From Botryococcus braunii (lineage: Eukaryota > Chlorophyta > Trebouxiophyceae), in assembly GCA_002005505.1 (NCBI GenBank), contig MVGU01001102.1:152001-216000 (forward strand): 64,000 bases of DNA, in the 5' to 3' direction. Positions 61,451 through 61,957 of this stretch are shown here, in pieces. The position numbers were made by a program, and so were the translations under genes. The notes under the pieces are model-generated. The model saw only the letters and a program-made list of their open reading frames with translations, searched no databases and was not told the DNA's origin. Within the stretch, counting starts at the first letter, position 1. Each line of letters begins with the position of its first letter.

Positions 61451-61957
61451 ATGGCGCGAACGCGACAAACCGGACGTATGAGCACGGGCGGAGGTAGACG
61501 TCCTCCACCACCACCACCTCCTCCAACATACAACGAGAGAAGAAAGGCAGGAGGAGACAAAGGACCGCGGACGATAGACGAACGAGCATTCCTGGTGAAG
61601 GACTTCGTCCACGAAGCACACGGACGAGGAGCACTCACCCCACCTCAGTGGTTCCAAGAGCGCTTCCCAATATACCCAGCTTACAAATTCACTGTGTGGG
61701 AAGTCTCTTTCATCAACGGAGAGCCAGGATATCTGACACGAGCAATTTTTGAAAGGTGCCTACAGCAAAAGGGAGGTCCGTCGCACGAAGCTTACTGGAC
61801 GGAGAAAGCTGCCTACGCAGCGATTGAGCTAGCTTTGAGCAGCCTGGGAGACGAATTTATTGACCATCTAATTCTCTACGGCGGAGGAGAATTTCACGCG
61901 GACGAGTGGGACACAGAGGAAGACAGTGTGGACGAGGACGGAGATTCCAGACTGTAA
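61451..61957 (+). CDS. Copia-H first ORF with histone H3-tail-like N-terminus
   Basis: 168 codons from an ATG 49 bases after the primer-binding site to TAA. The N-terminus MARTRQTGRMSTGG matches histone H3 ([14 protein letters not shown]) at 11 of 14 positions, with Arg at the Lys4 position. A Pro8 run follows (residues ~19-26). The core is shared with the Copia-D first ORF: YNER, DERAFLVKDF, WFQERFPIYPAYKFTVWE, SFINGEPGYLTRAIF. The end is acidic (EWDTEEDSVDEDGD). No transmembrane segment or zinc finger is seen. Gag-pol begins 33 bases downstream in the same frame but after two stops (TAA, TGA). Function unknown; the H3 likeness suggests contact with chromatin factors. Confidence 0.85.
   Translation: MARTRQTGRMSTGGGRRPPPPPPPPTYNERRKAGGDKGPRTIDERAFLVKDFVHEAHGRGALTPPQWFQERFPIYPAYKFTVWEVSFINGEPGYLTRAIFERCLQQKGGPSHEAYWTEKAAYAAIELALSSLGDEFIDHLILYGGGEFHADEWDTEEDSVDEDGDSRL

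Follow-up and report, generated by a model that had tools for sequence, protein, structure and literature searches.

Transposon silencing runs through H3K9 methylation. The copia element Ty5 has a targeting domain that imitates a motif of a host chromatin protein; the motif lies in the integrase and binds Sir4. The mimic described here is also copia-borne, but the Ty5 motif is unrelated to H3. Extra ORFs before gag occur in plant LTR elements: ORF0 of Retrosat2 is one and ORF1 of Ogre is another. Presumably neither of these is a copia element, unlike the elements described here. The likeness to Retrosat2 ORF0, an accessory ORF upstream of gag-pol, is one of description only, and the available part of PMC3485330 contains no word starting with 'histone'.

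According to the accessible part of PMC5030085, H3K9M binds the SET domains of G9a and Clr4, and Met at the place of K9 makes a stronger, SAM-dependent ligand of H3K9 methyltransferases. EZHIP (CXORF67) is a K27M-like PRC2 inhibitor which acts through a Met, and Ile also works in its place (available text of PMC6513997 and, for the inhibitor, PMC12713659). An ARKT mimic in ATF7IP (KARKT) is methylated by G9a/GLP, which have an automethylation site of the same kind (PMC6172828 and PMC9768651, in the parts available).

We describe an ORF upstream of gag (ORF1) in copia-type elements of the green alga Botryococcus braunii. It occurs in two clades, H and D, and these compare with different systems. 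The stretch ARTRQTGRMSTGG of clade H resembles the H3K9M oncohistone peptide (PMC5030085, accessible part), but that is a mutated histone, and the H tails differ from it further by A7G and, in most cases, K4R. With EZHIP, as far as the available text of PMC6513997 and PMC12713659 goes, clade H shares Met for the target lysine in an H3-like peptide, an adjoining functionally important Arg, tolerance of Ile and disordered flanks. EZHIP concerns the H3K27 site and is an internal stretch of a mammalian host gene, whereas the peptide of ORF1 would concern the H3K9 site, is N-terminal and belongs to a retrotransposon. Clade D has QTARKTT, which is like the ARKT of G9a/GLP and ATF7IP; those, in the accessible text of PMC9768651 and PMC6172828, are host silencing proteins with demonstrated methylation.

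Elements carrying ORF1

The window, i.e. the whole stretch of DNA that was analysed, comprises 64,000 nt. It contains one H element and one D element, with the following features:

61213..61364, plus strand: H element, 3' part of its 5' LTR (99% match to the neighbouring LTR piece 60884-61035)
61385..61397, plus strand: probable primer-binding site of the H element, GGTTATGGGCCCA
61451..61957, plus strand: H-element ORF1 of 168 aa, made up of an H3-like tail, a linker rich in proline, a helical core and an acidic C-terminus
61451..61492, plus strand: H3-tail-like N-terminus of H ORF1, MARTRQTGRMSTGG
61478..61480, plus strand: ATG codon of Met10 of H ORF1, at the place of H3 Lys9
61523..61885, plus strand: conserved helical core of ORF1, residues 25-145
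61991..64000, plus strand: gag-pol ORF of the H element, in which Pfam finds gag, pre-integrase and integrase of copia type; it runs off the window
46647..46946, minus strand: 3' LTR of the D element
51597..52388, minus strand: gag ORF of the D element, matching copia gag in Pfam with a score under the curated cut-off
52441..52941, minus strand: ORF1 of the D element, 166 aa
52906..52929, minus strand: RTKQTARN of D ORF1, equivalent to H3 2-9
52997..53009, minus strand: probable primer-binding site of the D element, same motif GGTTATGGGCCCA
53036..53335, minus strand: 5' LTR of the D element (identity of 99% with its 3' LTR)

Both are Ty1/copia LTR retrotransposons. The H element has gag, pre-integrase and integrase (PF13976 and PF22936 above the Pfam cut-off, PF14223 and PF00665 below it), and its 3' LTR and RT lie beyond the window edge. 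The D element has a pair of LTRs of 300 nt, and an RVT_2 domain is found within its span at 47885-48715 (E 3e-57). RVT_2 was also found in two other ORFs of the window.

The motif GGTTATGGGCCCA is present at four copia-rich places of the window: 61385, 53009(-), 54734(-) and 34288(-). We take it to be a half-tRNA primer site, as the complement of the initiator tRNA-Met anticodon arm. The last of these places belongs to a copia element at 31571-34288(-) with an ORF at the place of gag (no Pfam match) and a pre-integrase/integrase ORF. ORF1 was undetectable in this element by tblastn. The element serves as a natural control in the same window, and ORF1 is hence not part of every copia element here.

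The initial annotation regarded the two ORF1s as independent copies. They are in fact homologous over most of the protein, with 40% identity over 156-159 residues (E 7e-34, tblastn of both ORF1s against the window). No further copy was found in the window at a meaningful E-value by the same search; the one extra match had an E-value of 0.24.

The N-terminal tail has a net charge of +5 in both proteins, and the C-terminal end is acidic (net -10 in H and -7 in D). The mean pLDDT of residues 31-130 of the D model was 83-94, in a helical core. The pLDDT was below 50 in the first 15 residues of the H model and the first 23 of the D model, and such very low values in both tails are as expected for disorder. 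Pfam and NCBIfam searches found no family for the core, and no PDB fold matched it significantly. A histone fold domain was not found, as neither ORF1 had any Pfam match at E≤1; PF00125 does find the host histones.

Use of the first ATG, on which the initial annotation depended, could be supported in part. An in-frame stop lies three codons 5' of the ATG of the window H ORF1. The same holds for L001-L038, and in L039-L053 and L055-L057 the stop lies directly before the ATG. The ATG thus opens the frame in these loci. In L059-L068, L076-L079 and L085, the frame is open further upstream. The first ATG of the window H ORF1 has G at -3 and +4; around the second, these positions are C and A, respectively.

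Similarity to histone H3

MARTRQTGRMSTGG at the start of H ORF1 is identical to histone H3 in 11 of 14 positions. In MAKKRTKQTARNTT, which opens the window D ORF1, RTKQTAR equals H3 residues 2-8. Both statements of the initial annotation were correct, and so was its view that the likeness exceeds chance.

We shuffled residues 2-17 of 17 N-termini and counted identities to H3, with L040 as the D-type sequence (the window D copy was not among the 17). None of 200,000 shuffles reached the score of window H (10 identities), and the result was the same, 0 of 200,000 each, for L101 (11 identities) and L025 (10). The score of L040 (9 identities) was reached by 11 of 200,000 shuffles and those of the other 13 N-termini by 14 to 1,247. 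As shuffling keeps the H3-like composition, the test is conservative. Under an iid null of 1,000,000 N-termini, none reached 9 identities and four reached 8; window H has 10 and window D 8. When the N-termini of 243 ORFs of the window and of the histone loci were compared, only the two ORF1s (10 and 8) exceeded 5 identities.

H3 was also found by profile search. A profile of 15 N-termini (subfamily representatives, chosen by hand) gave histone H3 as the top match in PDB (E 6e-7), and the best 60 of 137 matches were all H3-type, one of them Cse4. A profile of 25 sequences of the ORF1 family had one match at E≤10 among the 177,635 PDB sequences, an H3 peptide (E 0.54). L101 and L040, each searched singly, matched H3 in PDB with E-values of 0.0058 and 0.24. 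With the full-length H protein as a single query, the only PDB matches at E≤10 were two unrelated chains, neither of them H3.

The subfamilies retain different H3 residues. Within H3 4-13, six places differ between window H and L040, and at every one of them the H3 residue is present in one sequence or the other. The abundant subfamily L101, which reads MGRTKQSGRMSTGGKRP, adds the H3-identical K4, K14 and P16. Taken together, the family very probably mimics H3 at the level of its sequence.

The H3 genes of the host include L089-L091. Besides these, there is a CENH3-like host gene (L092, genome C224) with a tail start close to canonical H3. This start ends in GGNRP, which the tail of ORF1 also contains in L029 and L031.

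The ORF1 family

Hundreds of copies of ORF1 are present in the Botryococcus braunii genome (176 Mb, 989 contigs). Searches were performed with H, D, P0005 and P0009, taking the best 150 of 783-806 candidates each, and the resulting lists overlap. Annotated Botryococcus braunii proteins reach 89% identity to ORF1, and protein searches with ORF1 matched only Botryococcus and environmental proteins. The codon pattern M-[AG]-R-x-R-x-x-G-x-M had 205 matches genome-wide and one in the reversed control. Among 100 of these matches listed, 97 were family-like and three plainly unrelated; one had an internal stop. The codon pattern R-T-K-Q-[ST]-G-R-M had 106 matches genome-wide and none in the control. 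Both patterns demand Met, so these numbers count copies and not the share of Met.

The tree of the core separates H (Met/Ile at position 9), D (Lys) and two environmental proteins, P0009 and P0010, with Arg at this position. P0012-P0014 have an SRTQTAQRRT tail and lie deep on the D side of the midpoint-rooted tree. The H3 likeness of P0012 and P0013 was not above that of their own shuffles, as 27,134 and 32,900 of 50,000 reached the score. These tails and the Arg9 of P0009 and P0010 mean that not every relative has the mimic. P0012-P0014 either lost the H3 likeness, or the likeness came about later, by convergence.

Some D-type copies have a shortened ORF1 of 90 aa, in which the tail and the first part are kept and the core is deleted. 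Two such copies were fetched, L069 (genome C1) and L070 (C4), and at least 25 rows of equal score were among the matches listed. In L069, the stop of ORF1 overlaps the start of gag (ATGA). Since the core was lost by deletion in these copies, it may not be needed in every element. Pieces of ORF1 were also seen in two long open frames, C556:62498-62941 (2655 aa) and C565:64999-65376 (1821 aa). These are possibly in-frame fusions of ORF1 to gag-pol or to a host gene.

Position 9 and selection on the tail

The two clades differ at the place of H3 lysine 9, which is a new observation: the residue is Met in H and Lys in D. Met was found in 44 of 46 H loci, Ile in one (L075), and one was broken. Among 38 D loci, 31 have Lys and one has Asn; in the remaining six the tail is broken or out of frame. 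The sample consists of distinct loci, with eight repeat loci excluded; most are best matches to the window copies, so close relatives are over-represented. Sampled copies thus keep the H3-like start, as the initial annotation required, and the single Asn among the D loci is that of the window's own copy. The A-R-K-S/T motif was found in 29 of the 38 D loci (28 KQTARKT and one KQRARKT) and is absent from clade H. Apart from the six broken or out-of-frame loci, the exceptions in D were KQTARNT (the window copy), KQTARKP and KQTAGKT, one each. Met at the target lysine of a conserved H3-like peptide, which defines a K-to-M mimic, is found in clade H and not in clade D.

The tail does not evolve neutrally. 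Pairwise counts of 11 H and 8 D sequences, in which shared ancestry is ignored, gave a pN/pS of 0.06 for D KQTARKTT, i.e. H3 4-11 with S10T (bootstrap 0.00-0.13; 8 sequences), and of 0.24 for the D core (0.18-0.31; 6 sequences). The pN/pS of H codons 2-9 was 0.23 (0.10-0.40), compared with 0.29 (0.23-0.36) for the H core. In a sliding scan of six full-length D sequences, KQTARKTT ranked 8 of 159 windows; the window one residue to the right ranked 7 and the one to the left 33. The H tail windows ranked 50 and 65 of 161, and the dN/dS of H codons 2-14 (0.24, same type of counts) was above that of the core (0.16). The constraint on the H tail is hence real but ordinary. It does not exceed the constraint on the H core, and this counts against the mechanism proposed below.

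At the place of H3 residue 3, D varies between T, I, P, A and S. That D conserves H3 4-11 while this place varies points to a site for a K9 writer or reader and lends no support to the original emphasis on PHD-type readers of residues 1-4. What stands is the claim of a retrotransposon protein with an H3-tail mimic: the family is multicopy, it is under purifying selection, and H3 was found by a search that was not aimed at it. The roles first suggested for it, as a decoy, in targeting of integration or in chromatin, would be candidates.

Possible function

Met or Ile at the place of K9 in H, as in K-to-M histones and EZHIP, and ARKT in D, as in ATF7IP, led us to propose an H3K9-substrate mimic. 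ORF1 would be an accessory protein of copia-type elements which acts on host chromatin, inhibitor-like in H and bait-like in D; we consider this a serious candidate, just short of likely. Its flexible N-terminus would imitate the H3 tail around lysine 9 and engage the H3K9 methylation machinery, while the helical core and the acidic end would keep ORF1 within a complex or particle. Clade H has Met (once Ile) for Lys9 beside the conserved Arg8; such a tail would occupy the active site of an H3K9 methyltransferase as an unreactive pseudo-substrate, and the element would be silenced less. In clade D, KQTARKTT with its methylatable lysine would be an alternative substrate which draws the methyltransferase or methyl-lysine readers to the protein of the element. 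The proposal builds on the family, its position before gag, its tail, the constraint and the M/K split. From these we infer binding, inhibition or methylation, and a benefit to the element.

The stronger version, a natural H3K9M-type pseudo-substrate inhibitor in H and an H3K9-type methylation bait in D, encoded before gag as an anti-silencing weapon of several hundred copia elements, is possible but doubtful. If true, the H ORF1 tail would be the natural counterpart of the laboratory and cancer-type H3K9M mutation, and mobile elements would have come upon the K-to-M trick on their own. As the K/M split falls between sister clades, it offers a built-in comparison. In the window, the stretch from the primer motif to the start of H ORF1 contains three ATGs. 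We count this against the mechanism, together with the distant relatives that lack the mimic, the loss of the core in some D-type copies, the PDB search with the full-length H protein that found no H3, and a possible role of Met10 as a second start codon. The host has 11 SET domain matches over the cut-off. A search of the host for Pre-SET had no match, likewise in 14 of 14 control genomes, and no H3K9-specific methyltransferase was identified in the host.

The resemblance of a short basic peptide to H3 by chance was already disfavoured and is very remote. The match spans only 13-17 residues, and the full-length H protein alone finds no H3 in PDB, but the shuffle, iid and profile tests and the retention of the tail in two deep clades weigh against it. 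A basic tail, captured or convergent, could also be only a nuclear localisation or nucleic-acid-binding signal, its H3 likeness having no specific role. The charge of both tails would suit such a signal, and distant relatives retain only an Arg-rich QTA motif. This is nevertheless unlikely: eight D sequences keep the uncharged Q, T, A and T despite codon variation, Arg replaces neither of the two Lys of KQTARK in them (one Asn, in the window copy), and the best 60 of 137 matches of the N-terminal profile were H3 and not generic basic tails.

A chromatin tether would accept the mimicry and give it another use, with readers of the H3 tail (PHD, chromodomain) carrying the particle or integrase to chosen chromatin and Met9 being incidental. 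Retrotransposons are known to target via host chromatin proteins, as Ty5 does via Sir4, and in H the register of H3 is retained right from the free N-terminus (A/G1, R2 and mostly T3). In D, however, the block is preceded by two or three additional residues and the residue 3 place is variable, and readers of a free N-terminus would probably not accept this. Moreover, the chromodomains tested in PMC5030085 (accessible part) did not bind the H3K9M peptide, and a tether is rather unlikely. Met10 of clade H could instead be kept as the internal start codon of a tail-less isoform and not as a substitute for Lys9. Met has a single codon and is nearly invariant here, and the annotated protein P0002 begins at Met10, its matching locus L084 having no ATG at codon 1. 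Against this, the upstream codons 2-9 are under purifying selection and must therefore be translated in at least most lineages. The second ATG of the window also has the C and A context where the first has G at both positions, and the sole intact residue other than Met among the 46 loci is Ile, which is tolerated in K-to-M inhibition of PRC2. An internal start is quite improbable as the reason for the Met.

Other repeats in the window

A near-identical ORF of 111 aa (MHTAVISNWSECL...) is present three times in the window, at 24428-24763(-), 28360-28695(+) and 34715-35050(+). It is an inserted repeat. In the annotated protein P0011, a piece like this ORF is fused to the start of ORF1.
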